DNA of 51,678 nt, from contig JAHFQW010000009.1 of the NCBI GenBank assembly GCA_023259115.1, forward strand, positions 1-51,678, given 5' to 3'. Positions 5,924-47,935 of the stretch are shown here, piece after piece. Below the pieces are notes generated by a model. It had not been told where the DNA came from and searched no databases. It saw only the letters and a list, made by a program, of their open reading frames with translations. This stretch comes from an archaeon. GTDB lineage: Archaea; Nanobdellota; Nanobdellia; Woesearchaeales; GW2011-AR9. Each line of letters opens with the position of its first letter. Within the stretch, counting starts at the first letter, position 1. The position numbers and the translations under genes are program-made.

Positions 5924-5992
5924 TTAACAAGAAGGAAAACCTTTATCAAAAGCATAAAAATTAAACAACAAAGTAATATCATCATTATCAAT
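5924..5992. repeat. 69-bp repeat copy B (dockerin-coding 3' end)
   Basis: Second copy of the 351-419 repeat, with one base difference. It encodes the C-terminal dockerin-like repeat of the 701-residue protein. Confidence 0.9.
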
Positions 5993-8029
5993 ATCTGTAT
6001 CACAATCAAGATGTGCCGCAACCATAGCACTTAAGCAACTTTCTGGAAATTTATTATCAAACGCATAATACTTAAAAAGAATTGTTATATCATCATTATC
6101 AACACTCCCATCACAATTCACATCACCTTTCATAACCTTCTCTCCTGCCCCACTCTGACCCGTCACACTCTTTTCCTTAACCCCAAACCCCATTTCCCCA
6201 GATGTACATGACTTCTTCACCCCTTTATCAGTAACATAAATATGTTTTTCCACTGTTTGCACAGGACACCATTTTTTTTCACTTTTATCCGGATTAGCAC
6301 AACCAGTAAAAGGTCCAGAAATACTTTCTTTTTTCACCTCTTTTCCATTAGTATCTGTCGTAGATTCAGTCTTAGAATAATACCACTCACCATCTTCACA
6401 CCCTTTTGCCAACGTAGAACTATCACAATACAAATATTTCCCCATCCCCTCTTTATACACATTCTTAACATTCTTCTTATTTTCAATTGCACACCATGTT
6501 TCATCACCAAGACATCCAATCTTTGATCCATCACTAAACTTACTAAAATCATACCACGAACTACTACACTCATCAGAACCAGTATCAACCAATTGAAATG
6601 TTCCAGAAACCTTCTCCAAACTAATATCCTTCACAATCACTTTTAAATACCATTTTGATAATGCATACGTATGGGAAACTGAACCATCACCATCCACAAC
6701 CCAATTCTCAACAGAATCTAATCCTAATTTTCCAATTGAAATGGTATTAAACAATAATATATTAAAATAAGCCATCTGATATGTTTCACCCGTCTCTAAT
6801 TGAAAAATAGTAACATCTCCCATATTTTTCAACTCAAACGACTGCGGCTGTATTGTAACGACATTCGCATCAGTACACTTGTTATCAGTGCTACAATATT
6901 TCCCCTTCCCGCACGACTTAAATGCACATCCCACCCCACAATACCCCTCACAATCATATTTCAGATTAACCCATTTCGCATTCACACATTTATAAAGTAT
7001 TTCTTCAGAATTTATTACTGCATATGTACTTTTCCCACCATTTTTTTCCTCACAAAGTTGATCCTCTTGCGAACCTACACTTCCAAGATTACACAACAAA
7101 TTTTCATGATCATTCAAACGTCCTCGATCTGTATTCTTGCAAATAGGAGACCACACAGAACCATCACAAACATAAGCTTTACCTCCATTTACAATAGCAA
7201 TAGAACCCATCTCTTTTCCCTCACATAATGCACTCCCACCTAAACCACTTTGTACATTACACAATACTTTTCCGTCAGAAGCAAAAACAGAAGAAGCAGT
7301 TTTACATACAGTATCCCATTTATAACTTGACCCATATTTATTGCATTGATACACTTTACCATCATTCCCTTTATCTAAAAACCCTTCACTATAACTAAAA
7401 CACCCCCTACTCTTTACTTTAGAATTCCCACACAAAATTGCACCATCATTTTGTAAAGTAATTGAATCAGAACAGCCCGTATCAATCCATTTCTTATCTT
7501 TACAAAAAAAATTACCATCAATATCTCCAGAAACACATGGATAATTCAACCACTGACCCCCTTTACAGATATATTTTTGTGTTCCATCACTCACATGATC
7601 CTCAGGCTCGAAATATACATCACCATTCGGAGTACTATCCTCACAAACATACCAATTTTTCTTAGAACATAAATAATGTTTATTTTCTACAAGCATATCA
7701 CTTACAAATTTCAAACCAGCATAATTTTCCGATGTTGGAGCATCACACATCGCCCATTTAAAACTATTACCAAAAGGAGTAGTACACATTATCTGAAAAC
7801 CACTATCTTGTGAAATAACATACCCGATATTACCTCCATTACATTCAATTTGCCCAGTATACAGCTCCCCCGCCTTCCCCGTCACCGTCTCTTCTCGTCC
7901 TGTAAACCAAAACACACCCACAAGTAAACCAATCAACATAAGAACAATGAACACAATAAAACCCATCTTCCTACGTACAACCGCATCATGCTCAGAACTA
8001 CCCTGTCCATACACTCTCTTTTTCATCAA
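5924..8029 (-). CDS. Membrane-anchored secreted protein with Cys/Trp repeats and C-terminal dockerin-like pair
   Basis: This 701-residue protein has a positively charged N-terminus, a membrane segment at about 23-45 and a membrane-proximal VTGKAG. The extracellular region from about 60 to 380 holds at least six copies of a short element with the pattern [YF]-x-C-x(3-8)-W-x(2-6)-C, for example YLCSKKNWYVC, YICKGGQWLNYPC and AYVCDGSVWSPIC. A non-repeated beta-rich domain follows (about 395-490), then further Cys motifs. The C-terminus is dockerin-like: GDVNCDGSVDNDD at about 635 and a second, degenerate DCDTDIDNDD near 675. The two C-terminal repeats mirror those of the 351-908 lipoprotein. Function is unknown; a calcium-dependent surface assembly or carbohydrate role is inferred from dockerins. 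Confidence 0.75.
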   Translation of the reverse strand: MMKKRVYGQGSSEHDAVVRRKMGFIVFIVLMLIGLLVGVFWFTGREETVTGKAGELYTGQIECNGGNIGYVISQDSGFQIMCTTPFGNSFKWAMCDAPTSENYAGLKFVSDMLVENKHYLCSKKNWYVCEDSTPNGDVYFEPEDHVSDGTQKYICKGGQWLNYPCVSGDIDGNFFCKDKKWIDTGCSDSITLQNDGAILCGNSKVKSRGCFSYSEGFLDKGNDGKVYQCNKYGSSYKWDTVCKTASSVFASDGKVLCNVQSGLGGSALCEGKEMGSIAIVNGGKAYVCDGSVWSPICKNTDRGRLNDHENLLCNLGSVGSQEDQLCEEKNGGKSTYAVINSEEILYKCVNAKWVNLKYDCEGYCGVGCAFKSCGKGKYCSTDNKCTDANVVTIQPQSFELKNMGDVTIFQLETGETYQMAYFNILLFNTISIGKLGLDSVENWVVDGDGSVSHTYALSKWYLKVIVKDISLEKVSGTFQLVDTGSDECSSSWYDFSKFSDGSKIGCLGDETWCAIENKKNVKNVYKEGMGKYLYCDSSTLAKGCEDGEWYYSKTESTTDTNGKEVKKESISGPFTGCANPDKSEKKWCPVQTVEKHIYVTDKGVKKSCTSGEMGFGVKEKSVTGQSGAGEKVMKGDVNCDGSVDNDDITILFKYYAFDNKFPESCLSAMVAAHLDCDTDIDNDDITLLFNFYAFDKGFPSC

Positions 8030-22784: not shown

Positions 22785-23603
22785 ATGAAAAAGAGGCGAA
22801 CATCAAAAACATCTAACAAAACCAACATCAAAAACCCCATTCTCAAAAAAGAAGTCAAACATAAACCATTTTGGGCCCTCCTAGGCATACTTCTCCTCGT
22901 CACATTTATTATCTTCATTAATAAAACCCAAACCAGCCTCAATCTCACAGGACACGCCGTACAAGTCATCTCATATCAACCCCAAGGAAGCCAACTCTTC
23001 TTTGAAATACGTAACGTTCCTAACCTCAAAGATGGCACCGCCCATTTCTCAGACACCGTCAAAAACAGTAAGATTACCATAAATGAACAATCTATTCCTA
23101 AATTCAAGGGCACTGCTCTCTCCGCATTTGATATAGAATCTCCCGAATCCACAAAAATAAGTCAAATTGACCTCACATTTAAAATCAAAAAAACAAATAT
23201 TACTAACGCTAAATTATTACCAGCTGAACTCACCCTCTATCAAAATGACCAACCAGTCTACTTATCAATTGAGAAAGAAGAAGGAGAATACACCTACTTT
23301 AAAACAACCATCAACATGTTTGGCACATACATTTTAGGTAAATCCAGAATAGAAATCACCTCCACACCAACAACAACCACGCCAGAACTCAAAGAAACGA
23401 CACCTCCCCCTCAACTTCAAGAGCCAAAAGCTCTAGAAGAACAAAAGCCAATAATAGTTGAACAACCAAAACCCCTAATCATAAGCATAACACCCAGTGG
23501 AGAAGCAACACAACCACCCGCAACTTCCACCACATCACAACCACTCCCAAAACCATCAATCTGGCAAAAAACCAAAGACTTCTTTAAAAACATCTTTAGA
23601 TAA
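22785..23603 (+). CDS. Single-pass membrane-anchored protein with proximal LTGHAV motif
   Basis: This 272-residue protein has a strongly basic N-terminus (KKRRTSK), a TM segment at about 30-50 (FWALLGILLLVTFIIFI), a short spacer and then LTGHAV, a membrane-proximal motif shared with other surface proteins here. Residues 60-185 form a beta-rich domain with many K/T/N residues. A Pro/Thr/Glu-rich stretch (about 190-255) follows and the C-terminus ends with an amphipathic basic helix (IWQKTKDFFKNIFR). The topology is N-in with the beta domain outside. Function is unknown. The TATA box at 22755 would make the mRNA leaderless. Confidence 0.7.
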   Translation: MKKRRTSKTSNKTNIKNPILKKEVKHKPFWALLGILLLVTFIIFINKTQTSLNLTGHAVQVISYQPQGSQLFFEIRNVPNLKDGTAHFSDTVKNSKITINEQSIPKFKGTALSAFDIESPESTKISQIDLTFKIKKTNITNAKLLPAELTLYQNDQPVYLSIEKEEGEYTYFKTTINMFGTYILGKSRIEITSTPTTTTPELKETTPPPQLQEPKALEEQKPIIVEQPKPLIISITPSGEATQPPATSTTSQPLPKPSIWQKTKDFFKNIFR

Positions 23604-24031: not shown

Positions 24032-25060
24032 ATGAATTTCGAAAAAATCCCTCCCGTAGATAACGGCAAAACGCTACTCGATTTAGCATTTCGCAGAGCG
24101 CGCGAACACCTCTCAGAAAAAAAAATCTCGGGAGACCACTTTGCCAAGATGCACAAATTTGAAACCATCAAAATTGACACTATCAAAGACATCCTCTGCT
24201 CACGATTAATCAAAACCACGCAAAACTTCCCCCAAACACAAGAACTACCTCCTTTTTATCAAAAATTGCTCACAATTACCCTTGATTTTGCCGCATTCAA
24301 AAAATCACTCGCATCCATGCAATGGGCCATTCAAAAAATTCGCGCTTTCCAACGCCTATACAACTCAAAAATCCAACGTGAATCTAATCCCCAGCGCATC
24401 AAAGCCCTCTCCAATGAATATTATGGTCGCATTTCCTCTGTACTAAAACAAATCAATCCCCAACTTCTTTATTTAGAATACTCACGCAAGATGATGCGCA
24501 CCTATCCTGACATCAAAGAAATGTTCACTCTCTGCATCTACGGCTTTCCTAACGTAGGTAAAACAACTCTTCTTAATCATCTTGCCCACACCAAAGCCGA
24601 AGTCGCCGCCTACGCCTTCACCACCAAAAGCATCAATGCCGGCTACATCACTCTCAACGAACAAAAAATTCAATGTCTTGACGTCCCAGGCATCCTCGCC
24701 CGTGATGAAAAACTAAATCCTATTGAACGTCAAGCCGAACTCGTCTTAGATGAACTCGCCAACATCATCATCTACATTTTCGATTTGAGTGAATACTCCG
24801 GGTACTCCATCAAAAAGCAAGAACAGCTCTACCAAAAGCTCAAACGTGAACAAAAGCATAAAATCATCCTCTATCTAAGTAAAATCGACCTCACCGACCC
24901 AGATATAATAGCCCAATTCAAAAAAGACCATAAACAACACTTCTTCACCAAAGAAACCATTGAAGAAATGAAAACTGAAATTTTAAGCCAAAAAGAAAAA
25001 TTTGATGAAAAGAAACGAGAAGAAAAACCCGTAGAAGTCCCAGAATCAATCTCTTCTTAA
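24032..25060 (+). CDS. Nog1-like (OBG/TRAFAC class) GTPase
   Basis: This 342-residue GTPase has G1 GFPNVGKTT at 171-179, a G2 region near FTTKSIN (197-203), G3 DVPG at 217-220 and G4 SKID at 283-286 (Ser in the first position where NKxD is usual). The long helical N-terminal domain (1-165) with MHKFETIKIDTIKDI resembles Nog1, a GTPase for large-subunit ribosome assembly. It has a Lys/Glu-rich, probably coiled C-terminal tail (300-342). Function: likely ribosome biogenesis GTP hydrolysis. The preceding 428 bp contain the zinc ribbon gene on the other strand. No ribosomal gene is adjacent. Confidence 0.85.
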   Translation: MNFEKIPPVDNGKTLLDLAFRRAREHLSEKKISGDHFAKMHKFETIKIDTIKDILCSRLIKTTQNFPQTQELPPFYQKLLTITLDFAAFKKSLASMQWAIQKIRAFQRLYNSKIQRESNPQRIKALSNEYYGRISSVLKQINPQLLYLEYSRKMMRTYPDIKEMFTLCIYGFPNVGKTTLLNHLAHTKAEVAAYAFTTKSINAGYITLNEQKIQCLDVPGILARDEKLNPIERQAELVLDELANIIIYIFDLSEYSGYSIKKQEQLYQKLKREQKHKIILYLSKIDLTDPDIIAQFKKDHKQHFFTKETIEEMKTEILSQKEKFDEKKREEKPVEVPESISS

Positions 25061-25506: not shown

Positions 25507-28500
25507 ATGAAACAAAAGATTAATTTTCAAAAAAAGAATAAAAAGCGTTCAACACTCAGTGAAAAGCTATTTCTTCTTGCAATCTTACTTATCACAAGCA
25601 TAATCATCCTCAATATAAGCACCAATGCAACACAACATACCTCTACCTCAAAATCCACCACCCAACAATCAACATTCCTCAGTCAAATTCAAAAAATCAC
25701 CCAACACATTTCATTAAATACCAATCTCCTCACCGGTGCCTTCATCGGAACACAAGACTTAGGAATACAAAGTATTGGCCCAACCGATGATCTTAACTCA
25801 TTCCTCGATACATTCACCGGAGGAATCAACACTTCATTCTACGGCAACGTCACCTCCGTCATCAACATAAGTTACAACAACAATAATATTCTTGTAAATG
25901 GTTCTGTGACCACTTTTGCCAGCGCAGAGATAGTAACATACCAAAACTTGTCATTAAACACATTTAACGCCAGCGTCACCATCAATCTCAGCAACACCTC
26001 TCCGAGTATGACTGGAAATGCTATTGCGCAAGCCAGTCTCTTAACCCTAAACAATAGTAATACCTCGCAAGGAACCTCTGAATGTTATGTCGCAGTAAAT
26101 ACTACCGGGATTTACACACTAGTTGCTAAAGCCAGTTTTAACTCCAAAAATTCCACCATCCTCACTGGCTCTGGAACAAACACCGGCTTTGGCACACTAT
26201 CCATGCATTTCGACAATAGCACCAATCAAATCACCTGCTCTTTTGGTGGATCCACCGTCGTAAACGCTATAACCCAAATAGGAGAGGAATTTGGTATTGG
26301 CTTAAGTGGAACACTCGGTTCCGAAGCACTTAGTCCTCCCACAGGAGGAATCAACCTCACCTTTGACAACTTCAACTACACCCGCACCTTAAACGAACCT
26401 CTCTGTGGCACCTACAGCACCAGTGTCACACTCAAAAATCATGTCAGCGCTTCGGGAACTTGTTTTACATTTACCAGCTCAAACCTATTCTTAGATTGTA
26501 AAGGATTCAACATCACCTTTGGCAACGCCACTGGTTCTGCGTATGGTGTCAACCTAGACACAAACTCACCTCGGATAAATGTAACCGTAAAAAATTGCAA
26601 CATTAATGATATCGTAGGTGGTACAGGAGACATTGGCATTCGCTATTATCAAAGCCATGACAACGGCACCATCTGGAATAACACCATTATATCACCCTCT
26701 GATGTCGCCGCCATCACCATATATTACTCCAACAACACCAACATCACAAACAATATCATCACCACTAACGCCAGTTCCACCGGCTTAGATATAGAATACT
26801 CTCAAAACACCATTATTGAGAATAATTTCATCAACACCTCAACCAGTAGCAATGGTATTTTCATTCTTACCGGCAATGCCACCATTGATGGAAACACCAT
26901 TAACACTTCCGGTTCAGGAGAAGCCATCTCGCTCTCCTCCACCCTCAATGGCACAATTATCCAAAATAATATAATTCACACACTCGGAAATGGAGGAGAT
27001 GGCATCGATCTGGCAACCAGTATCTCCACCCTCATTCAAACCAATATGGTCACCTGTGGTGGAGGACCTGTCAGCACCTGTCTCTCGCTCAGTAGTTCTA
27101 ACTCGAGTATTATTCGTGATAACAATATAACCTACACCGGTTCCGCAGGCGTCGGAGTCGGTATTTCAGTTAATTCCGAAAAAAATTACTTCATCAACAA
27201 CAATATCACCTCCACAAGCCTTGGCGAAATCTCAGACACCACCGCCAGTGTCTATCTCAATTATGTAGTGTATAACAACAGCTTTGGTGAAATCAAATGG
27301 CTTGACAACGGCACCGGTTCATTGCCCCGCAATCTAACCATGAGCCTCAATCGTACATTAGGCTTTGGCAGTAATATTTTCATCGGGAACAATACCATCG
27401 CACTAAACAAAAGTGCCTGGGCGTTTGGTGCTATTAGTAGCCTTGCTAACCTCACTTTGTATGGTATAAACCTCTCATCTGTTAACAGCATCAACAAAGT
27501 CGAAAACTTCACAACCGATGCTGTGCAAATTCAAGCAGCAGGCCCAAATTGTATAAATCTTGGGTGTAATAACATTAGTTACATCGGTAACACTTTAAAA
27601 TTTAACACCTCAAATTTTAGTAGTTTTGCAGCAAATTATAGCACGTTTGGTGGAGCGACTTCTTCTTGTGGCCTACTTTCAACAACGACTACATTAGTAA
27701 GTAGCGTAAGCAGTACCTCAACTTGTTTTCATATCAATGCCTCAAACATCATTCTAGACTGTTCTGGATACACCATCACCTATTCCACCGCAGGAACTCT
27801 AGGATATGGTATAAATAACTCAGGATATTCTAATATAACCATCCAAAACTGCCGTATTGTAGAAGGAAATATATCCACAAATAGTAAATACGGAATCTAT
27901 TTTCAAAAAAATACCACTGGTGACTCCGTACCACAAAAAGGCACTATTTTTAACAATACGCTAATCACTTCTGGTGCAAGCTCCAATGCCATAGAATTAG
28001 ATGATGCAAATTTAACAAATGTCAGCTCCAATCTCATTAATACAACCGGTTCATCAGCTCATGGAATGTTCAATACAAGAGGAAGTAATGTTTCTATCAT
28101 GTATAATAAAATTATCGTATTTAATAGTAGTGCAGATAATATTATTCTTGCCACAAGCCCCAATTCATTTCTCTCCTCAAACAATCTTACCTCCTATGGA
28201 ACTTCATCTAGTACCATCGATGTTCGTGAAGCATCAGGAACAACTTTCACCTCAAATAATTTAACTAATTTTGGAGAAACCGCAACCGTATTTAATTTTA
28301 ATAGTGCTTTTGTAAGCAACAACGTAACTATCATCTCCAATGAAATAAGAGGAAATGGCTCCGTAACCTATCTTCTCTTATTACAAAGAGTAAATAACAG
28401 TCTAGTAAATAACAATCAACTATCTGAAAGTACGAGTGGCATAGGAATTTATTTTGACACATCCACCGGAAACACATTAGTAAATAACAACATCAGTGTA

Positions 28501-30981
28501 CCCGATGGTATTGGTGGAACATGGGAAATACGTGATGACAACGCCAATGATGGTTTCTTTAACTATTTAATTTATAACAATTCTTTTGGTGAAATCAAAT
28601 GGATTGATAACGGCACAGGGAGCTTTGGTCGTAATTTAGATGTACAGATTGATCGAGATATCAGTTCCACCTCAAACATATTTATTGGAAACAACACTAT
28701 TGCCGTAAATGCATCTGCATTTCAAATCGGGAAAATAAATTCCACCGCAAATCTCACCTTATTTTCCGTAGGTCTCTCATCAATAGGCCAAATACAAAAA
28801 GTTGTTAATTTTACTACAAATAGCACCGAAATTCGCAGTGCCGGAATAAATTGTACACCCAGTGGAGGTTGTTCTATTATAAGTTACACAGGAGGAACAC
28901 TTAAATTTAATACCTCTTCATTTAGCAGCTTTGCAGGGAACTTAACTGCCGTTGACAGTATACCTCCTCTCTTCAACCCTCTCCCCACCAACCAAACCTC
29001 TGAATTTGGTGATTTTTTTAGTTACGATTTCAATGCCACAGATGACGTAGCAATCTCCACGTATGGAATTAATTACACCTCGCTCTTCAGTATCAACTCC
29101 ACCGGTGGATTAGTTAACATCTCAGCACTCAGTACGCCTGGCAACTATCAATTCAACATCTCCATCAACGACACCTCCAACAACAGAAACAATACTTTCT
29201 TCAAAATAACCATACAAGACACCATTGCACCAAGCTTCATTCCCCTTATCGCAAACCAAACACTCGAAGTGGGAAATTCATTTAGTTATGACATCAACGC
29301 CACGGATGCGTTATTTGCCAATTACAGCACCAACTACACATCTCTATTCATATTCAACAGCACAGGAGGATTAACAAACACATCAAGTATCACAACCCTT
29401 GGCAGATTCATCTTCAACATCTCCATCAATGACACCTCCAACAACAGAAACGGCACATTCTTCATGATCACCATGCAAGATACCATAGCACCCAGTTTCA
29501 TTCCTCTTGTCACAAATCAAACAATTGAATACGCAACCCAATTCACATATGACATCAACGCCACAGATATTTTATTTGCCAACTACAGTATAAACGACAC
29601 CCAGTTTAGTATTAACAACACGGGAGGAATTGTCAACACAACTCATCTGTCCATTGGAGGCTACATACTAAACATCAGTATCAATGACACTTCCAACAAT
29701 AGAAACAGCACTTTCTTCAAAATAACTATTCAAGATACTACCATCCCAACAATTAGTAATATTAGTAATCTCACCTTTGACAACACCTATAACTTAATCG
29801 CTCAGTACAACGCCAGCGATAACGTCAACATCAGTACTTGGTTCACCAACGACACATCACACTTCACCATAAACACTACTGGGTACTTCAAAAACACCAC
29901 CATTCTAACTCTTGCAACATACTGGATTAATATATCTGTAAATGATACATCAAACAATAAAGCAGGGTTAATTATTTTTGTCAATGTCACCGCCAATGTT
30001 ATATCGTCTTCCAATTCAGGGAGTGGTAACTCCAACAACAATGGCGGTGGAAGCAGTAGTAGTAGCAGCGAAACCTCAACCACAACAAGCCCTAGTGCTC
30101 CAGCCACAAACCCCACACAAACCGCTGACAAACCACAATCAGAAACTCCTCAACCAACTACCTCCCTCTCAATTGACACGGGAAGCAGTTCAGGTAAATC
30201 CTCAGAAAACAACCAAGAATCAGCCACCTCCAAAACCACACAACTCACCGGTGTCACCGCCGCAGAAAACACGCAAAATAACCAGAATAGTCCTTTTGCC
30301 ACAGGTTTTGCTCTGTTCCAAAACGCAACAAGCATCGCAACCAAATACAGCACTTTCTCCCTAAGCTTATTTGCATTTATATTCCTACTAAGCATAACTG
30401 TTTACACATTTAAAACAATACGAAAAATCCCTTTTAGAAAAGTTCCAACAATGATTGAGAAACCACTTCCAAAAACATTTATAGAAAAACCAACACAAAA
30501 AATCCTAACAAAATCTACATCCCAACCATCACCTTATGAAACAGAACTTCAATCCATTTCGCAAGAAATCCAAGGCTATGGCATACAAATCAAACCAACA
30601 TCCCCCCCTCATTCCCATAAAACATTTCTAGATCGATTTAAACCATCAACATATTCAACATATAAATCAGTAATAATGGAAACACCTGCCTCAAAATCAC
30701 ACTATGATAAACAACTCCAAAAACTAGAACAAGAAATAGCCAACCTAGAACGTCCTATTCCAACAACTAATTTAAAAACAACACCTACCTCTCAATTGAA
30801 ATGCCAAAGCACCAGAGAACTCCTAGAGCGAAAAAACAACACATTCAATCAAGCAACCACAACACCAACACAAAATTCAAAAATAACCAACCAAAAAAAC
30901 AAGTCCAATCGCTATAGTGAACGCTACCACAAAGAACTTGAGAAAATAGAACAAGAAATAACCAAACTTCGTCAGACATAA
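25507..30981 (+). CDS. Giant surface protein: two beta-helix domains, four Ig/cadherin-like repeats, C-terminal TM and coiled tail
   Basis: This 1824-residue protein has an N-terminal TM at about 18-38, LTGAF near 75, and an N-terminal beta domain. A parallel beta-helix (Asn-rich PbH1 repeats) at about 282-715 is the part nearly identical to the 44830 protein; a second, diverged beta-helix covers about 716-1150. Four Ig/cadherin-like repeats start near 1153, 1241, 1331 and 1413, each with F-x-P-L-x-x-N-Q-T type openings. A Ser/Thr/Gly/Pro linker (1500-1610) precedes a TM at about 1616-1637. The cytosolic tail has three amphipathic units beginning YETELQ, YDKQLQ and YHKELE. N-x-[ST] sequons are very frequent, implying N-glycosylation. 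Role: adhesin or surface anchor, inferred from the fold. Confidence 0.85.
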   Translation: MKQKINFQKKNKKRSTLSEKLFLLAILLITSIIILNISTNATQHTSTSKSTTQQSTFLSQIQKITQHISLNTNLLTGAFIGTQDLGIQSIGPTDDLNSFLDTFTGGINTSFYGNVTSVINISYNNNNILVNGSVTTFASAEIVTYQNLSLNTFNASVTINLSNTSPSMTGNAIAQASLLTLNNSNTSQGTSECYVAVNTTGIYTLVAKASFNSKNSTILTGSGTNTGFGTLSMHFDNSTNQITCSFGGSTVVNAITQIGEEFGIGLSGTLGSEALSPPTGGINLTFDNFNYTRTLNEPLCGTYSTSVTLKNHVSASGTCFTFTSSNLFLDCKGFNITFGNATGSAYGVNLDTNSPRINVTVKNCNINDIVGGTGDIGIRYYQSHDNGTIWNNTIISPSDVAAITIYYSNNTNITNNIITTNASSTGLDIEYSQNTIIENNFINTSTSSNGIFILTGNATIDGNTINTSGSGEAISLSSTLNGTIIQNNIIHTLGNGGDGIDLATSISTLIQTNMVTCGGGPVSTCLSLSSSNSSIIRDNNITYTGSAGVGVGISVNSEKNYFINNNITSTSLGEISDTTASVYLNYVVYNNSFGEIKWLDNGTGSLPRNLTMSLNRTLGFGSNIFIGNNTIALNKSAWAFGAISSLANLTLYGINLSSVNSINKVENFTTDAVQIQAAGPNCINLGCNNISYIGNTLKFNTSNFSSFAANYSTFGGATSSCGLLSTTTTLVSSVSSTSTCFHINASNIILDCSGYTITYSTAGTLGYGINNSGYSNITIQNCRIVEGNISTNSKYGIYFQKNTTGDSVPQKGTIFNNTLITSGASSNAIELDDANLTNVSSNLINTTGSSAHGMFNTRGSNVSIMYNKIIVFNSSADNIILATSPNSFLSSNNLTSYGTSSSTIDVREASGTTFTSNNLTNFGETATVFNFNSAFVSNNVTIISNEIRGNGSVTYLLLLQRVNNSLVNNNQLSESTSGIGIYFDTSTGNTLVNNNISVPDGIGGTWEIRDDNANDGFFNYLIYNNSFGEIKWIDNGTGSFGRNLDVQIDRDISSTSNIFIGNNTIAVNASAFQIGKINSTANLTLFSVGLSSIGQIQKVVNFTTNSTEIRSAGINCTPSGGCSIISYTGGTLKFNTSSFSSFAGNLTAVDSIPPLFNPLPTNQTSEFGDFFSYDFNATDDVAISTYGINYTSLFSINSTGGLVNISALSTPGNYQFNISINDTSNNRNNTFFKITIQDTIAPSFIPLIANQTLEVGNSFSYDINATDALFANYSTNYTSLFIFNSTGGLTNTSSITTLGRFIFNISINDTSNNRNGTFFMITMQDTIAPSFIPLVTNQTIEYATQFTYDINATDILFANYSINDTQFSINNTGGIVNTTHLSIGGYILNISINDTSNNRNSTFFKITIQDTTIPTISNISNLTFDNTYNLIAQYNASDNVNISTWFTNDTSHFTINTTGYFKNTTILTLATYWINISVNDTSNNKAGLIIFVNVTANVISSSNSGSGNSNNNGGGSSSSSSETSTTTSPSAPATNPTQTADKPQSETPQPTTSLSIDTGSSSGKSSENNQESATSKTTQLTGVTAAENTQNNQNSPFATGFALFQNATSIATKYSTFSLSLFAFIFLLSITVYTFKTIRKIPFRKVPTMIEKPLPKTFIEKPTQKILTKSTSQPSPYETELQSISQEIQGYGIQIKPTSPPHSHKTFLDRFKPSTYSTYKSVIMETPASKSHYDKQLQKLEQEIANLERPIPTTNLKTTPTSQLKCQSTRELLERKNNTFNQATTTPTQNSKITNQKNKSNRYSERYHKELEKIEQEITKLRQT
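26350..27654 (+). repeat. 1305-bp near-identical repeat, copy A (beta-helix coding)
   Basis: Matches 45724-47028 at a constant offset of 19374 bp. By eye the only difference is T at 27615 versus C at 46989, a synonymous Asn codon. Both copies are in frame within a surface-protein gene. Flanks diverge at once on both sides (26349 A versus 45723 C; 27655 G versus 47029 A). No transposase or inverted ends are visible. Confidence 0.93.
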
Positions 30982-35725: not shown

Positions 35726-38700
35726 TTATTGACCTCGCAAACGTCTCAATTCTTCCTCTACATCATCCAAACTATACCCCAAACACTTTTTCTGAGGTGA
35801 AAAAGAGACAGAAGAATAAGTAGAAGAAACACCCTCCTTCTCTATTTTCAAGCCGCGTTGACTAACTAATTCTTTTTTCAACTGCTGTAAACGATCTTTC
35901 TCGAACAGCAATTTCTCACGTTGAAATTCCAGTTGCCGTTTCTCCTCATCAAATCTATTTTTACTTTGTTGTCGTATCAACTGTTCTTCTTGTTCCCTAC
36001 GTACTTTTTCTTGTTCCCATTCTAATTGTTTTCGCCCTCTCTCCAATTCCACTCTTTTCTGCACATCCAAATAATCTAAATGTTTTTTTTCTTCTGTTAA
36101 ACGCACTTTTTCCCGTTGTTCTTGCTCACGTAATTCTAAATCCCTCTGCTTCTCTTGTGAAGTCTTATACAAACCAATAGTATGAAAAAAATCTTTCCAC
36201 CAATTCTCTCGATCATCCCATCGCTTCTCACTCGCATCTCTCTTTGCCCGTTCCAACTCCACAATTCTTCGTTTCTCAATTTGTAATTTCCACCGTTCTT
36301 CCTTTTTACGTCGATCATCTTCATTAGTTAACAGCACATTTTTTTTCTTTTGAGAACGAAAAGTATCCCTCTCTTGTTCTTGTTTGCTGCGTCTTGCAGA
36401 CTCCCGTACCCACTCTTCACGTTGCTCTTCCAACTTCAACTCCTCTTTCTCCAGCGCCAAATTCTCTTTTGCCAATTCCATTTTCTCTTTAGGAGAACGC
36501 AGCCCTAACACCCCACAAAAAGTCTTAAACAACAATATCCTTTGTTTCCATCGCAGCACTCGTTGCGCTTCTTTTTGTGATTTCTTCTCTAACAAAAATC
36601 TTTTTTTCTCATTCCGTAAATCTAATCGCTCTTTCTCCTCTTTCAAACACAACTGTCGTTGCTCCTCCACTTGCTTTTCTTTTTCTTTTCGTAAATTCTC
36701 CTCTTGCATTCTAAACCACGTTCTCTGCCGCTCTTCCTCCACCCGATGGCTTCGTTCATGATCTGATAATTCTTGATCAAACTTCTGTTTATATACCTCA
36801 TCCATAGCGGCATTTTTGTATTGGGAACGAGAGATACGTTCTTCTTCTTTTTGTATCTGATCTCTCCATTTGTTTTCATCCTCTTTCTCAATATACACAT
36901 CACCTTTACTCACTGCAATTGCTGAACGATTCCCCAAATGCTTCTTCATCTCCTCAGGAGAACTCTTGTCAAATAGCTCCACTTTTCCCTTACCAATATT
37001 AATCGTAACATTTTTTCTTTCCCTGCGTCGCAATAAAAACAAAAAGACCAACATCCCAAACAGCAGAAAAAGAAATAAAACCAACAGCATCAAATTAGAA
37101 CGTCCCTCTGTTGTACCAAACGAAAATGCACTTCCTACAACACTTTTTTGAACATTTAGTGATGATTGTTGCACTATAACACCTCCACATCCTCGTCCCA
37201 ACGGTAAGTTCACTGCAATCCCGCACCCATTCACATCGCGACACGCCCTCTGCTGTATCTCCCCTAATTGACAAGATTCTGGATTCCATCCTGTACACTC
37301 CCATTGCGGCTTACAAACACAAGCTTGCTGTTCGACAACCTCAATCACTTTACAATTTGAACGCACTTCTATACAATTTCGCGTTTGTGTCTGAGTTGAA
37401 GAACAAATCCCCCACCCCGGACATTTCTGATCATAGGTACATACCGCACCTTGCAACACTTCTACTAATTTTTCAGATACAACCGTAACTGTTTTAGAAC
37501 TAGAACTACCACCACCGCCCCCTCCTCCGCCACCGCCAGAAGAACTCCCGCTTGATCCACTACCCGAACCACCTCCGCTACCCCCACTGCCACTATCACT
37601 ACCACTTCCAGATCCTCCCGACGCATCACCCACTTCCACCGCCGCAGAATGACTCAATCCTGTAATGCGATACTGCGCACCTAAATCCGTACAGGTAAAT
37701 CCCAACGTAATACTGCCATTACATGGAACTTTCACCTCACTCTCACCCGTACAATTAATAGAAATCTCAGAAAGACTTGTCACCGCTTTATCTTTCACGC
37801 ACACACTATTTCGCTCAATATCAATATTATCAATGTAGATCGTCTTCTTAGCTCCTGCCGTTAAATTAATTCCTTTCACAATAATACTCCCCTTCGTCGC
37901 AGTAGCGCTTTGTTTAAGAATCGTAATATTTCCTAAAGATAATGGAATACCCAAACTAAAATCATAATCAAACTCTACCAACGGATTTGTGATATTCGTA
38001 ATATTAATTTTCTTCATACTAGAAAATTGCGCAGACGTATTAAACGAACCATCCACCGTCAGATTAAATCGAGCAATGTTCCCATTAATATTACTCACAT
38101 TACCATTTAAAAAATCAACCGAATTCGCAACTCCATCATTATCATCATCCAAATCAAATTCATCTGAAATACCATCTCCATCTGTATCCAAACCCAACGT
38201 AAAGTTAAGTGCACTCATATTTATATTACCAACCACATCTGTAGCATACACAAGCAAACTATGATTCCCAAACCCTTTTACCGTATCAGAAACATTAATC
38301 CCTATCTGCACATCCGTACAAGAACTACATAAAGTTATATTGCCTAAACCATCTAAATCATAAATGAGTGAGCCCGTTTCTGAAATCGAAATATTAAGAA
38401 CAAACGATAACTTTGTCGAATTCTCAAAAATTCTCGGCTTATTGATAGTAATCAGCGGAAGAACTGTATCTCCTGTGACATTAAGCGTTATATTGTTAGA
38501 GTACGTAATATTAACACTATCATTCGCAATAAATTGCACCCACGTCACCCCTGCCCAATTTGACTGCGGTTTCAACGTTATTTTTCCTTTATTAACGCTG
38601 GAAGGATTATTATCAATCTCCACCGTCACATATCCCCCTGTAACCGCTGTGTAATTCAACGAATCATTTTCAAAATCACTAAAATAATCATCTAAATCAT

Positions 38701-39217
38701 AGCCCGTCAGCCAAACATTTTGCTCCCATTGCAAACTAGGAAACGACGTACCCAACACAGGCACAGAATTATTAACATCTAAAATAAAAGAAGTACTCGC
38801 ATTTAACGCGCAACCAATTGCTGCATCTGCCACCGTAATCAAAATAGGATACACCCCTATATCTGTACGAAACGGCGTAATATTAATCAGGCCCGTACTC
38901 TCATTAATCACAAATAAAGAAGTATTGTCATAATACGTCAAACTGCCATTTCCCGGATCCGACGCATTCACTTTATAGGTAAAATTAGTATTAAAATGTC
39001 CGCGTTGTGTCGCAATCTCATTAATTGTCGGAGGATAATTCACACACATCATCACCTGCCCCGTAACCGAAGACACCGTTCTTCCGGTAATCGTCATCAT
39101 CGTAACCGCATTGATACAACTAAGAACAACTAGAATCAACGCAATAATTCCCATCAACCTCTTTTCCCGCATAGAATTAAACAGAAAAGAAAACACATCT
39201 ATAAACCTTTGTTTCAT
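35726..39217 (-). CDS. Large surface protein: Ig-like and TSP3 repeats, TM, long charged coiled-coil tail
   Basis: This 1163-residue protein has an N-terminal signal/TM (about 18-36) ending ITGRTVSSVTGQVM, a TG motif seen in the other surface proteins. Extracellular part: cadherin/Ig-like domains (about 45-330), a thrombospondin-type-3 calcium repeat DTDGDGISDEFDLDDDNDG near 345, further beta domains, a Gly/Ser run (about 525-570), then a Cys-rich domain (590-665). A TM near 690-710 (LMLLVLFLFLLFGMLVFLFLL) is followed by a 440-residue cytosolic tail, almost all Glu/Arg/Lys/Gln, ideal for a long coiled coil or single alpha-helix. The C-terminus YSLDDVEEELRRLRGQ resembles the tail of the 25507 protein. 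Confidence 0.85.
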   Translation of the reverse strand: MKQRFIDVFSFLFNSMREKRLMGIIALILVVLSCINAVTMMTITGRTVSSVTGQVMMCVNYPPTINEIATQRGHFNTNFTYKVNASDPGNGSLTYYDNTSLFVINESTGLINITPFRTDIGVYPILITVADAAIGCALNASTSFILDVNNSVPVLGTSFPSLQWEQNVWLTGYDLDDYFSDFENDSLNYTAVTGGYVTVEIDNNPSSVNKGKITLKPQSNWAGVTWVQFIANDSVNITYSNNITLNVTGDTVLPLITINKPRIFENSTKLSFVLNISISETGSLIYDLDGLGNITLCSSCTDVQIGINVSDTVKGFGNHSLLVYATDVVGNINMSALNFTLGLDTDGDGISDEFDLDDDNDGVANSVDFLNGNVSNINGNIARFNLTVDGSFNTSAQFSSMKKINITNITNPLVEFDYDFSLGIPLSLGNITILKQSATATKGSIIVKGINLTAGAKKTIYIDNIDIERNSVCVKDKAVTSLSEISINCTGESEVKVPCNGSITLGFTCTDLGAQYRITGLSHSAAVEVGDASGGSGSGSDSGSGGSGGGSGSGSSGSSSGGGGGGGGGGSSSSKTVTVVSEKLVEVLQGAVCTYDQKCPGWGICSSTQTQTRNCIEVRSNCKVIEVVEQQACVCKPQWECTGWNPESCQLGEIQQRACRDVNGCGIAVNLPLGRGCGGVIVQQSSLNVQKSVVGSAFSFGTTEGRSNLMLLVLFLFLLFGMLVFLFLLRRRERKNVTINIGKGKVELFDKSSPEEMKKHLGNRSAIAVSKGDVYIEKEDENKWRDQIQKEEERISRSQYKNAAMDEVYKQKFDQELSDHERSHRVEEERQRTWFRMQEENLRKEKEKQVEEQRQLCLKEEKERLDLRNEKKRFLLEKKSQKEAQRVLRWKQRILLFKTFCGVLGLRSPKEKMELAKENLALEKEELKLEEQREEWVRESARRSKQEQERDTFRSQKKKNVLLTNEDDRRKKEERWKLQIEKRRIVELERAKRDASEKRWDDRENWWKDFFHTIGLYKTSQEKQRDLELREQEQREKVRLTEEKKHLDYLDVQKRVELERGRKQLEWEQEKVRREQEEQLIRQQSKNRFDEEKRQLEFQREKLLFEKDRLQQLKKELVSQRGLKIEKEGVSSTYSSVSFSPQKKCLGYSLDDVEEELRRLRGQ

Positions 39218-39696: not shown

Positions 39697-39701
39697 GGTG
39701 A
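39697..39701 (+). promoter_or_regulatory. Ribosome binding site GGTGA fixing the start at 39707
   Basis: GGTGA lies 5 nt before the ATG at 39707. The GTG at 39698, in frame, overlaps it and is therefore not the start. Confidence 0.6.
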
Positions 39702-39706
39702 ATAAT

Positions 39707-40561
39707 ATGAATGATATTTCCAATAGAAGCATAGTCGCGCTACTCGCTGTAGCCTTAGTCATAACCGTCATAGGCACTGCCGTGAGCGTCAGTAAACTCG
39801 ACGGACTGCAAAACAGATACAATGTATTAACCGGTGCTGTAACATCAAGCAGTTCCTCCGGTCAAACCAACATAACCATCACTTCAACTACCGAGATCAC
39901 ATTGGGAAATAGTAATATGAACTTTGGTACGGGGAGAGTAAATGCAACATGTTCCCAATGTAGCATGGATTCAAATAGAAGCGTTTCTAACGTCTACACC
40001 AACCAATCAACAGTGGGTGGGAATATTGCGACTGACGATCGAAATTGCTGTCTGAGTTTCAGTGCGGTCTCAAGTGGCTTCTTAATTGAAAATACCGGAA
40101 ACGTTAACGTCTCTGTAGGATATACTTGTGCTGGAAACTGTACTCGCTCATCTTTCATTGGTGGTAGCTTTGCCGGACCCATTGCGAGAGGAAACAGTAA
40201 CGGTCTTGACATCAAAATAACACCGCAGGTCACTCGTAGTGAAGCCGGTGAACAAGGAACCACAGACATAACTGCATCTTGCGTGGGAGGAGGAACGTTG
40301 TATAGGGACAGTGGATGGAACATCACCAATTCAAGCACGTATTCGCAATCAGGCGCAAGTTACGGTGCCCCTGCGCAAACCTACCTCGCCCTGAGTCCCC
40401 AAGGACACTGGTTATGTGGAAATTACACCAACTCCCCGTTAATGCCTGACCAGGTAAAAAATGCCGGAGTACTCGATATTAACCTAACGGTCACTAACGA
40501 CGCTTTAGGTACAGGTGTACGAAGTTCATTAACCTTGACGTTCAACGCCACATCGCAATGA
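39707..40561 (+). CDS. Pilin-like surface protein 2 (ISN-TM-TGAV, FG...ENTGN module)
   Basis: This 284-residue protein starts MNDISNRSIVALLAVALVIT, the TM, followed by SKLDGLQNRYNVLTGAVTSS. An extracellular domain of Cys/Ser/Asn-rich beta strands contains MNFGTGRVNATC near 70 and ENTGNVNVSVGYTC near 130, and a WLCGNYTN segment near 242. The same elements occur in the 42206 protein. N-x-[ST] sequons are frequent. The N-terminal layout (short polar head, TM, then helix and hydrophilic domain) is pilin-like, but no KRG/Q cleavage site is visible. It may form or decorate a filament, by inference. The start is the ATG with GGTGA upstream. Confidence 0.7.
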   Translation: MNDISNRSIVALLAVALVITVIGTAVSVSKLDGLQNRYNVLTGAVTSSSSSGQTNITITSTTEITLGNSNMNFGTGRVNATCSQCSMDSNRSVSNVYTNQSTVGGNIATDDRNCCLSFSAVSSGFLIENTGNVNVSVGYTCAGNCTRSSFIGGSFAGPIARGNSNGLDIKITPQVTRSEAGEQGTTDITASCVGGGTLYRDSGWNITNSSTYSQSGASYGAPAQTYLALSPQGHWLCGNYTNSPLMPDQVKNAGVLDINLTVTNDALGTGVRSSLTLTFNATSQ

Positions 40562-42205: not shown

Positions 42206-43075
42206 ATGAACCACATTTCTAACCGTAGCATCCTAGCATTAATTGCTATCACCCTGATTATATCCACAGTAAGTACTTTTATCAGCATCAGTAAACTCGA
42301 CGGACTGCAAAACAGATACAATGTACTAACCGGTGCTGTAACATCAAGCAGTTCCTCGGGTCAAACAAATATAACCCTCGCCGCAACAACCTCAATTACT
42401 CTTGGCATGGAATTGATCAATTTTGGATCTGGACGAGTAAATGCCAGTTGTGACTATTGTAATATTGATACCGATCTGCATACTGCCACAAGTTATTATA
42501 GCAATGGTTCGATAATCCTCCAAGACACACACTGCTGTATCGGATTTAACACCAGTGGTAATTCCAATGTAGATGGTTTCACTATAGAAAACACCGGCAA
42601 TGTCAATGTTTCCGTTGGCTACACCTGTTCAGGTAATTGTACTCATACTTTATTCGTTGGCGGAACATTAGGTAGTCCGATGGGGGGAATTGAACTTCGA
42701 ATCTACCCCGGCATGAACGGCGCAACATCAGAACTCGGTGGTTTTGATACCCAACAATCTTGCGCCGGTGGCGGAACACTCTATCGAGATAGCAGCTGGA
42801 ACGCCACAAATGACAGTAGTTATACCAATCCAAGCAACTTTTCTTACACCGGAGGCACACAACCAATAGGTTCAGCCAATGGTGCCCCTCGTGACTTTGT
42901 ACTCAGCTCCCGCGGCCACTGGCTCTGTGGAAATAACACCAATTATCCTTTAATGCCCGATAACACTAAAGACGCTGCAAATCTCGCCATCAATCTCACC
43001 ATTCCTAGAAACGCTCCGGGCACTGGTATAATGAGCTCATTTAGCTTAACCTTCAACGCTACATCTGCCGGATAG
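42206..43075 (+). CDS. Pilin-like surface protein 3 (paralog of 39707)
   Basis: This 289-residue paralog of the 39707 gene has the start MNHISNRSILALIAITLIIS (TM), then SKLDGLQNRYNVLTGAVTSS, identical in this stretch. The ectodomain has LINFGSGRVNASC near 72, ENTGNVNVSVGYTC near 131 and WLCGNNTN near 244. The DNA of the shared region (42292-42370 versus 39795-39870) differs mostly at synonymous sites, showing selection on the protein. It follows the short Ig-like gene after 4 nt. Function is probably the same as its paralog: a filament or surface-layer component, by inference. Confidence 0.7.
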   Translation: MNHISNRSILALIAITLIISTVSTFISISKLDGLQNRYNVLTGAVTSSSSSGQTNITLAATTSITLGMELINFGSGRVNASCDYCNIDTDLHTATSYYSNGSIILQDTHCCIGFNTSGNSNVDGFTIENTGNVNVSVGYTCSGNCTHTLFVGGTLGSPMGGIELRIYPGMNGATSELGGFDTQQSCAGGGTLYRDSSWNATNDSSYTNPSNFSYTGGTQPIGSANGAPRDFVLSSRGHWLCGNNTNYPLMPDNTKDAANLAINLTIPRNAPGTGIMSSFSLTFNATSAG

Positions 43076-44320: not shown

Positions 44321-44833
44321 GTGCCATTAGACAAACCAATTCCCAACACCGTACTCCTCGCAACACTCCCCTCAGAAGAGATACTAAAACAACTCTTTCT
44401 CAATCTTCATTCCCAGCAAAAACTCAGCCTCTCTTCCCTCATTGACCTATATCAACAAACCGTTAAAGAACCTTTTATTCCCCTCTTCATATTCACAAAA
44501 ACACCAAATCCTGCCCAAGCACTCGTAAAATACCTCAAAGAGAAAGAAAATTATTCCCATAACGACATCTCCTTGCTTCTCCACAAAGATCCAAAAACGA
44601 TCTGGGGAATTTCTCAACGTGCAAAAAAATTAAAATTCCACCAAAATAAACTCCATCAACAAACTCCCTACCAATTCCCTCTCTCTATTTTCCAAGAATC
44701 CTCTCGTACCATCTCCGAGAATATCATTCTTTATCTTAACAAAACATACCATCTCCAAACCAAACAAATCGCCAAACTACTAGAAAAAAGTCCTAATACC
44801 ATCGCCGTCTTATTAAAACGAGCCAAAGCATGA
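44321..44833 (+). CDS. HTH regulator coupled to the adhesin gene
   Basis: This 170-residue protein starts with GTG at 44321. Two helix-turn-helix units are visible: SHNDISLLLHKDPKTIWGIS near 78-97 and TKQIAKLLEKSPNTIAVLLK near 148-167, the latter with the spacing of a sigma-70-region-4 like HTH. The N-terminal 70 residues are helical. Its stop overlaps the ATG of the 995-residue adhesin (ATGA, 44830-44833), so it is translationally coupled and may control that gene or phase of the surface cluster. No sensing domain is visible. Confidence 0.6.
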   Translation: MPLDKPIPNTVLLATLPSEEILKQLFLNLHSQQKLSLSSLIDLYQQTVKEPFIPLFIFTKTPNPAQALVKYLKEKENYSHNDISLLLHKDPKTIWGISQRAKKLKFHQNKLHQQTPYQFPLSIFQESSRTISENIILYLNKTYHLQTKQIAKLLEKSPNTIAVLLKRAKA

Positions 44834-47817
44834 ACTCAAACCAAAAAAACAAAGAGAAACTGCACCAAGAAATCATCGAACTAGAAAATATCCTTCGTAA
44901 AAAAATAATCGCCAATCAGCCAAAAGACATCCCCGCTATTAAAGAAAAAATCGCTCAAAAAAAATATTTTCTAAGTATAATTGATTCACAGCAAAAAAAT
45001 CATAACCAATACTTTAACCATTACACAAAGAAAAGAATAATATCTATCATTATTCTAACTTTAATCTTAGGTATAAGCATAAGCCTCCTATTCAATACAA
45101 ACAATCAACAAAATCTCACCGGTGCCTTCATCGGCCCACAAACCATTAAAATTCAAAGTTTTGACATCACCGATGATCTTGTATCATTTGTCGACACTTT
45201 CACAAACGACATCAATAGTTCACGCTATCTCAACGCCACAAACAATCTTGTATTAATGTATCAAAATGGTGCCGTACTTATTAACGGCTCAGTATCCAAT
45301 GTAAATGGTAACGCCACTCTAACCACGATTCAAAATCTTACTCTAAATAATTTTAATGTAAGCGTTACAATTAATCTTACAAACACCTCCCAAACATTTG
45401 TCTCTAGCAGCAATGTCGCCGGAGGGATAGCTTTCGTCAATCAATCTGATGTCACAAAATTCATTAAATGTGAAGTTATTCTCAACAACACCCAAGGGTA
45501 CGAAATCCAAATCAAAAATAAATTTGGGCCAAGAGGGAATAATAGCGCAGTTCCCACAGGTGCAGGCACACTGCGTATGGGATATGATAACCTAAGTCAA
45601 ACAGTAACCTGCGATTTTGCCGGCTCTTCCATAAGCTACGTCACAACAAATATAGGAGAAGAATATGCTTTACAATTAGAAGGAAGTATTGGTTTTGCCG
45701 GTTTTGGATCACCTACAGCAAGCATCAACCTCACCTTTGACAACTTCAACTACACCCGCACCTTAAACGAACCTCTCTGTGGCACCTACAGCACCAGTGT
45801 CACACTCAAAAATCATGTCAGCGCTTCGGGAACTTGTTTTACATTTACCAGCTCAAACCTATTCTTAGATTGTAAAGGATTCAACATCACCTTTGGCAAC
45901 GCCACTGGTTCTGCGTATGGTGTCAACCTAGACACAAACTCACCTCGGATAAATGTAACCGTAAAAAATTGCAACATTAATGATATCGTAGGTGGTACAG
46001 GAGACATTGGCATTCGCTATTATCAAAGCCATGACAACGGCACCATCTGGAATAACACCATTATATCACCCTCTGATGTCGCCGCCATCACCATATATTA
46101 CTCCAACAACACCAACATCACAAACAATATCATCACCACTAACGCCAGTTCCACCGGCTTAGATATAGAATACTCTCAAAACACCATTATTGAGAATAAT
46201 TTCATCAACACCTCAACCAGTAGCAATGGTATTTTCATTCTTACCGGCAATGCCACCATTGATGGAAACACCATTAACACTTCCGGTTCAGGAGAAGCCA
46301 TCTCGCTCTCCTCCACCCTCAATGGCACAATTATCCAAAATAATATAATTCACACACTCGGAAATGGAGGAGATGGCATCGATCTGGCAACCAGTATCTC
46401 CACCCTCATTCAAACCAATATGGTCACCTGTGGTGGAGGACCTGTCAGCACCTGTCTCTCGCTCAGTAGTTCTAACTCGAGTATTATTCGTGATAACAAT
46501 ATAACCTACACCGGTTCCGCAGGCGTCGGAGTCGGTATTTCAGTTAATTCCGAAAAAAATTACTTCATCAACAACAATATCACCTCCACAAGCCTTGGCG
46601 AAATCTCAGACACCACCGCCAGTGTCTATCTCAATTATGTAGTGTATAACAACAGCTTTGGTGAAATCAAATGGCTTGACAACGGCACCGGTTCATTGCC
46701 CCGCAATCTAACCATGAGCCTCAATCGTACATTAGGCTTTGGCAGTAATATTTTCATCGGGAACAATACCATCGCACTAAACAAAAGTGCCTGGGCGTTT
46801 GGTGCTATTAGTAGCCTTGCTAACCTCACTTTGTATGGTATAAACCTCTCATCTGTTAACAGCATCAACAAAGTCGAAAACTTCACAACCGATGCTGTGC
46901 AAATTCAAGCAGCAGGCCCAAATTGTATAAATCTTGGGTGTAATAACATTAGTTACATCGGTAACACTTTAAAATTTAACACCTCAAACTTTAGTAGTTT
47001 TGCAGCAAATTATAGCACGTTTGGTGGAACAACAAACTCCCTTCCTACCGCTCCCACCACCGGCCGCCCATTCAACGGCTCAGGTATCACCAACCGCACC
47101 CCTACATTTGAATGGTTTAATTCAACTGACACCGATGGCGACCCCATTTCATATCACCTCGAAGTGGATGACAACCCCACATTCAACAACCCTGAAATCA
47201 ACATCTCTGCCATCTCCCCCATCGCCGGTTCACTCAACACCACCTACTTCTCAAGTATCGGCATCGTTGAACTCACCATCGACACTAAATATTACTGGCG
47301 TATCCGTGCCAATGATAGCACAGGATATGGTGATTGGTCCAATGGCGCAACCCTAGATGGCCCCAGTTCCAACAGCAATCTCTCCAACTTCACCATAAAC
47401 TCTCTTCTCTCCTTCACCTTCACCAATAACGCCATTGAATTCGGTGAACTCGCTCGTGGCACCAACACCAGCACCATCTCCGGCACTCCCCTCCCCATGC
47501 GTGCTGAAAACACCGGCAACATCGAATCCAACATCAGCATTAACGCCTCCCCCATGTTCACCTCAGTTGCATTTAACACCAGTTGGTATCAATTCAAAAT
47601 CAGAGCCAACGAATCAAACGCATTTTATACTCCATTAAGCACCACTATCTGGACCAACATGAGCAATTCCACCACCCTCAATCACATCGTTAACCTCAGC
47701 TGGAGAGATATCAAAAACGACTTTTTAATGGACTTAAACATCTCCCTTCCCTACAATGAATACGGCGGATATAAATCCTCCATCATCACATTTACTATCA
47801 CCGGCTACTCTTCATAA
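44830..47817 (+). CDS. Surface adhesin: TM, parallel beta-helix, FN3-like and pilin-like C-terminal domain
   Basis: This 995-residue protein has a charged coiled N-terminal cytosolic part (1-65), a TM near 68-88, LTGAFIG near 96, an N-terminal beta domain, then a beta-helix at about 299-733 that is identical to residues 282-715 of the 25507 protein. After it comes an FN3-like domain (about 738-845: TPTFEWFNSTDTDGDPISYH, then KYYWRIRAND), and a C-terminal domain (855-995) with IEFGELARG and ENTGNIESNISI, resembling the FG/ENTGN module of the pilin-like proteins. No C-terminal TM. Sequons are dense. It may bind or cap the pilin filament, by inference. Confidence 0.85.
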   Translation: MNSNQKNKEKLHQEIIELENILRKKIIANQPKDIPAIKEKIAQKKYFLSIIDSQQKNHNQYFNHYTKKRIISIIILTLILGISISLLFNTNNQQNLTGAFIGPQTIKIQSFDITDDLVSFVDTFTNDINSSRYLNATNNLVLMYQNGAVLINGSVSNVNGNATLTTIQNLTLNNFNVSVTINLTNTSQTFVSSSNVAGGIAFVNQSDVTKFIKCEVILNNTQGYEIQIKNKFGPRGNNSAVPTGAGTLRMGYDNLSQTVTCDFAGSSISYVTTNIGEEYALQLEGSIGFAGFGSPTASINLTFDNFNYTRTLNEPLCGTYSTSVTLKNHVSASGTCFTFTSSNLFLDCKGFNITFGNATGSAYGVNLDTNSPRINVTVKNCNINDIVGGTGDIGIRYYQSHDNGTIWNNTIISPSDVAAITIYYSNNTNITNNIITTNASSTGLDIEYSQNTIIENNFINTSTSSNGIFILTGNATIDGNTINTSGSGEAISLSSTLNGTIIQNNIIHTLGNGGDGIDLATSISTLIQTNMVTCGGGPVSTCLSLSSSNSSIIRDNNITYTGSAGVGVGISVNSEKNYFINNNITSTSLGEISDTTASVYLNYVVYNNSFGEIKWLDNGTGSLPRNLTMSLNRTLGFGSNIFIGNNTIALNKSAWAFGAISSLANLTLYGINLSSVNSINKVENFTTDAVQIQAAGPNCINLGCNNISYIGNTLKFNTSNFSSFAANYSTFGGTTNSLPTAPTTGRPFNGSGITNRTPTFEWFNSTDTDGDPISYHLEVDDNPTFNNPEINISAISPIAGSLNTTYFSSIGIVELTIDTKYYWRIRANDSTGYGDWSNGATLDGPSSNSNLSNFTINSLLSFTFTNNAIEFGELARGTNTSTISGTPLPMRAENTGNIESNISINASPMFTSVAFNTSWYQFKIRANESNAFYTPLSTTIWTNMSNSTTLNHIVNLSWRDIKNDFLMDLNISLPYNEYGGYKSSIITFTITGYSS
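45724..47028 (+). repeat. 1305-bp near-identical repeat, copy B (beta-helix coding)
   Basis: The second copy of 26350-27654, in frame in the adhesin gene. Only one difference was found by eye (46989). The identity extends through variable-looking PbH1 repeats, so selection alone cannot explain it; recent gene conversion or duplication is likely. Confidence 0.93.
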
Positions 47818-47827
47818 AAAACACATC

Positions 47828-47935
47828 ATGATGAACATCAAAAAATTAGTTGAAAAACATTGGGACGAATTATTATTAGCTCTTAGTTTATTAGGTGCTT
47901 TATATTTTTTCCTAAAATACACCGGAACTTTATGA
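47828..47935 (+). CDS. 35-residue single-pass membrane peptide
   Basis: ATG at 47828 (or 47831) to TGA at 47933-47935 encodes 35 residues. A basic/acidic N-terminus (NIKKLVEKHWDE) is followed by LLLALSLLGALYFFL, one short TM, and KYTGTL. The stop overlaps the ATG of the next gene (ATGA at 47932-47935), and the start lies 10 nt after the adhesin stop, so it is translationally coupled and likely real. Small single-pass peptides in such positions may assist the envelope complex. I do not recognise it. Confidence 0.6.
   Translation: MMNIKKLVEKHWDELLLALSLLGALYFFLKYTGTL

Follow-up and report, generated by a model that had tools for sequence, protein, structure and literature searches.

Near-identity of one beta-helix module in two surface-protein genes of a Woesearchaeota-type archaeon: probable recent copying of a whole domain

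In antigenic variation by segmental gene conversion, as exemplified by Borrelia vlsE, a stretch of a surface gene is overwritten from another copy. The case described here resembles vlsE-type variation in that a surface gene segment appears to have been overwritten from another copy, but that system has a silent archive, an expression site and strain variation, none of which is known here, where each species is represented by one genome. More broadly, ectopic gene conversion leaves a sharply bounded segment of near-identity, at silent sites as well, in paralogues that are otherwise old; this pattern is also seen here, with the differences that the tract is one whole domain, that it lies in an uncultivated DPANN archaeon, and that mechanism and direction are putative. 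Among archaeal surface proteins, the adhesin-like proteins of Methanobrevibacter smithii and Methanosphaera stadtmanae are built from a membrane anchor together with large domains of right-handed beta-helix fold and further domains (PMC11532034). The proteins considered here belong to a different phylum and are similar in domain make-up, a likeness of architecture rather than of compared sequences; the words "recombination" and "identical" were not found in the text of that paper (PMC11532034). Our literature search returned no report of such domain copying for Woesearchaeota.

The window, that is, the whole stretch of 51,678 nucleotides analyzed, is one entire contig (C21) of a Woesearchaeota-type metagenome-assembled genome (MAG; 1.57 Mb, 54 contigs, 96% complete). 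The named matches to the module described below are from MAGs of Candidatus Woesearchaeota and Nanoarchaeota. As judged from translations, other genes of the window include pilus/archaellum-type ATPase and membrane genes, an aminoacyl-tRNA synthetase and a ribosomal protein, and reading of the ORF translations revealed that the window is also rich in membrane-anchored secreted proteins. Rfam and tRNA scans of the window gave no matches, and an IMG/VR scan found no relative. Two of the surface-protein genes, genes A and B, share a near-identical tract; these genes and their parts are as follows.

25507–30981, plus strand: gene A, 1824-aa surface protein (ORF)
25729–26346, plus strand: N-domain of gene A (sequence comparison)
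26350–27654, plus strand: module A1, the first tract copy, 435 codons (DNA comparison; family HMM)
27655–28968, plus strand: module A2, in tandem in gene A, a 41% identical module (module search, HMM, tree)
44830–47817, plus strand: gene B, 995-aa surface protein (ORF; Pfam)
45115–45723, plus strand: N-domain of gene B (sequence comparison)
45724–47028, plus strand: module B1, the second tract copy, with one synonymous difference at 46989 (DNA comparison; family HMM)
47029–47814, plus strand: C-terminal region of gene B, 262 aa, conserved at locus B in relatives G007, G010, G013, G021 and G034

Both proteins begin with a transmembrane (TM) segment, an "LTGAF" motif and the N-domain. In protein A these are followed by modules A1 and A2, cadherin-like Ig repeats, a Ser-rich linker and a C-terminal TM segment (TM and Ig assignments made by eye from the sequence), and in protein B by module B1 and an Ig-like plus C-terminal domain. 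A motif of the form [LIV]-T-G-[AHKQ]-[AVFI], some tens of residues from a TM segment, recurs in eight of the window's secreted or membrane proteins and could serve these archaea as a signal for processing or sorting.

Motif carriers: 5924–8029 (minus strand), 22785–23603, 25507–30981, 35726–39217 (minus strand), 39698–40561, 42206–43075, 44830–47817 and 47932–49176

Separately, Dockerin-like repeats (GDVNCDGKIDNDDIT), about 75% alike in DNA, occur at the C-termini of the secreted proteins encoded at 351–908 and 5924–8029 (both minus strand).

In an ungapped comparison, A1 and B1 differ by 1 mismatch in 1305 bp, a synonymous Asn codon (AAT at 27615, AAC at 46989), and the longest exact stretch within the repeat is 1265 bp. 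Each copy is in frame within an intact ORF, the one of 1824 codons and the other of 995. The similarity is far beyond chance, since blastn of the window against itself scored this repeat at 2353 bits and the next best at 233 bits. Upstream, the blastn alignment extends by 12 bp only, with four more mismatches, to 26338/45712; downstream there is no alignment at all. The coordinates, protein lengths, lone synonymous difference and in-frame sharing given in the preliminary description are thus all correct, and the strongly different flanks that it reported diverge at once on both sides. It had also raised further silent copies as a possibility; in the assembled genome, where repeats were checked by searches and a sample of contig ends, the tract occurs twice, with no third copy.

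The proposal that the tract encodes a beta-helix domain of about 435 residues was upheld by Pfam, AlphaFold and Foldseek. Protein B matches NosD (PF05048; E 5e-6, above the gathering cut-off) and Beta_helix (PF13229; E 4e-5, just below it), matches that reflect the repeat fold only and provide no evidence for copper-site maturation. AlphaFold predicted a regular right-handed beta-helix at residues 40–330 (pLDDT mostly 80–97), with a less certain C-terminal part after it, and Foldseek returned right-handed beta-helix tailspikes, mannuronan epimerases and the adhesin PfbA at modest TM-scores. Together, these predictions support a right-handed beta-helix fold for the module, with no specific function. 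Against a 430-position profile that we built from the modules of relatives, the tract spans positions 2–429, and so constitutes one whole family module. Modules of this class were found in 29 of the 60 genomes searched, often several in one protein; the present genome has only four full modules. Between other modules, protein identity is about 40%, and A2 is the nearest relative of A1/B1 in the module tree (support 88/67, weak).

The adjoining N-domains of genes A and B are 42% identical in amino acid sequence, with pS 0.72 and pN 0.42, versus pS 0.003 and pN 0 for the modules. The N-domains are homologous, and by sequence comparison their divergence is old. The surroundings of the two genes are conserved independently of each other:

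24032–25060, plus strand: NOG1-type GTPase gene, conserved neighbor upstream of the locus A beta-helix gene (loci of relatives)
44321–44833, plus strand: gene for a 170-aa HTH protein, conserved upstream neighbor at locus B (G007, G010)
47932–49176, plus strand: 414-aa gene, conserved downstream neighbor at locus B

Locus A, a beta-helix gene after the NOG1 GTPase gene, is found in seven relatives (G002, G010, G019, G021, G027, G033 and G034), and locus B, a beta-helix gene with the gene B C-terminal region before the 414-aa gene, in G007, G010 and G021; in G013 and G034 locus B is cut by contig ends. Modules are present at both loci in relatives. A recent whole-gene duplication is therefore excluded: A and B lie at different, separately conserved loci and are not a recent duplicate pair. 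The order of N-domain directly before module also occurs in G049 and G024, which suggests, from sequence comparison, that both genes had this pair before any overwriting of the module.

Copying at the level of the domain is the best-supported reading because pS in the module is 0.003 versus 0.72 in the adjoining homologous domain, and because the two loci are conserved: silent-site identity in the tract lies far above that of adjoining homologous sequence, and both loci, to judge from the relatives, are older than the event, each with flanks of its own. Of the two possibilities offered in the preliminary description, recent gene conversion is thus the better supported, and cassette exchange that diversifies antigens is not supported. 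We propose, with a probability of roughly 0.66, that one recent ectopic gene conversion copied a whole beta-helix module between old paralogous surface genes 19 kb apart. Non-reciprocal homologous recombination would have copied one module between gene A and gene B, presumably beginning in homologous module DNA and ending where homology stops, and the agent would be the ordinary recombination and repair machinery of the cell. The grouping of A1/B1 with the tandem neighbor A2, weak in tree support, hints at gene A as the donor. The result would probably be an exchanged stalk or binding domain on a protein that is secreted and anchored in the membrane. Neither direct or inverted repeats beyond chance nor transposon-like border repeats were found at the tract borders, and no recombinase or transposase gene was noticed among the window ORFs, whose list was read by eye. 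Counting against the proposal, no near-identical pair of full modules was found among the loci from 18 relatives.

Whether the near-identity is itself a product of assembly has to be weighed alongside this reading. Four pairs of contig ends in the genome overlap by exactly 120 identical bases, and the assembly is therefore a de Bruijn short-read assembly, in which a 1265-bp exact repeat is normally expected to break the contig. Less similar modules, or those of two strains, may have been merged into one node used twice, so that the near-identity is overstated or one of the copies is incorrect; the graph would have a single linear path, and long reads would not have been needed for a program or curator to pass through the node twice. 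The position of the lone A1/B1 difference is in keeping with such merging of interior differences: it lies 39 bp from the border, within one k-mer length, where merging cannot act, and the chance of its lying so near a border otherwise is about 18% (240/1305 positions). Yet merging requires about 120 identical bases at both module ends in both genes, where other modules are about 40% identical, which means that the ends, at least, must share a recent origin in any case; modules also stand independently at both loci in relatives, and both ORFs run unbroken through the tract. We consider an assembly effect unlikely. The assembly caveat of the preliminary description is real, given these overlaps and a repeat far longer than they are, and is answered in part by graph topology, which sets the copy order: the 18-kb middle is bounded by the repeat on both sides, and left–repeat–middle–repeat–right is the sole linear path. 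If both copies exist, their order is thus fixed, and the interiors of both may stem from one merged node. A shared recent origin of the modules is likely, because the contig could form only with near-identical ends; the exact figure of one difference in 1305 bp is unproven. Elsewhere in the assemblies, contig ends C27/C35, C30/C5 and C1/C3 of G000 carry inverted stretches of 155–196 bp that are 90–98% identical, perhaps a dispersed repeat that breaks assembly.

Two other mechanisms could produce a shared module. Duplicative insertion, in which illegitimate recombination newly placed a whole module in gene B (or A) and replaced no resident, would fit a right border that coincides with the end of detectable homology, and a module number that differs among genera at the same locus (at locus B, three in G010 and one here). 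It is at odds with the homologous N-domain just upstream in both genes, with the N-domain–module pair in G049 and G024, and with border microhomology no greater than chance, and we regard it as improbable. Considerably more improbable is a specialized system of cassette exchange or antigenic variation by which beta-helix modules are swapped among surface genes. Many relatives do carry modules in several of their surface genes, and graded similarities within genomes suggest recurrent copying, but the defining features of such a system are missing: the genome holds two tract copies and four full modules with no silent copy, the borders carry neither a conserved sequence nor repeats, and the window ORF list contains no noticed recombinase gene. 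Moreover, loci A and B of G010 and G021, as far as assembled, have no near-identical shared module, and copying makes both genes alike, not diverse. The antigen-cassette reading is accordingly not supported.

Gene conversion may have left other traces in this window and in relatives. Two membrane-anchored surface paralogues 2.5 kb apart (39698–40561 and 42206–43075) share a near-identical block of about 85 bp (KLDGLQNRYNVLTGAVTSSSSSGQTNIT), the rest having diverged:

39794–39877, plus strand: short high-identity tract in the surface paralogue at 39698–40561 (blastn, codon comparison)
42293–42376, plus strand: its partner in the surface paralogue at 42206–43075 (blastn, codon comparison)

Within the block, 24 of 28 identical residues use the same codon, versus 48 of 124 outside, and pS is 0.18 versus 0.82 outside, a contrast whose significance is overstated, as the block was chosen for its identity. 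It looks like a short conversion tract, silent sites included, and merging by the assembler is an unlikely source because the tract is shorter than the 120-bp assembly overlap. At the module loci of relatives, within-genome repeats grade in similarity between about 70% and 96%, as in G049 (82% over 1141 bp), G006 (79% over 1321 bp), G019 (89% over 548 bp) and G001 (96% over 287 bp), a spread that would fit copying or tandem duplication on many separate occasions. The 89% repeat (L069, G019:C17, 1–548 and 2179–2726) and the 96% repeat (L187, G001:C3, 6916–7202 and 7429–7715) lie in or beside a module gene. Contig breaks in the module genes of relatives were also considered as a sign of widespread identical modules, and this sign was set aside: 25 of 50 genes are cut, versus 17–22 expected once the full length of cut genes is taken into account (P 0.008–0.18), and the excess is no longer clear. 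The contig ends of G010 and G021 in module genes have no identical partner at the other locus; tracing them gave only a 141-bp assembler overlap (G021) and a 92% match over 121 bp (G010). A broader proposal, which we advance speculatively and think unlikely, is recurrent module-wise conversion among a few conserved loci, whole beta-helix domains being exchanged as units and repeatedly homogenized, with the present pair the youngest. If true, the process would be ongoing and may adjust how these cells attach to their partners.

We judge the A1/B1 tract to be a recent copy of a domain from one surface paralogue to another, genuine either wholly or for the most part; events of this type are well known, and this one lies in a group that has been little studied. 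It also serves as a warning that MAG assemblies may conceal or merge such repeats. If reads confirm it, the pair would be a clean case, from a DPANN archaeon, of gene conversion on the scale of a domain, and would hint at how small-genome, possibly host-dependent cells remodel their giant surface proteins.
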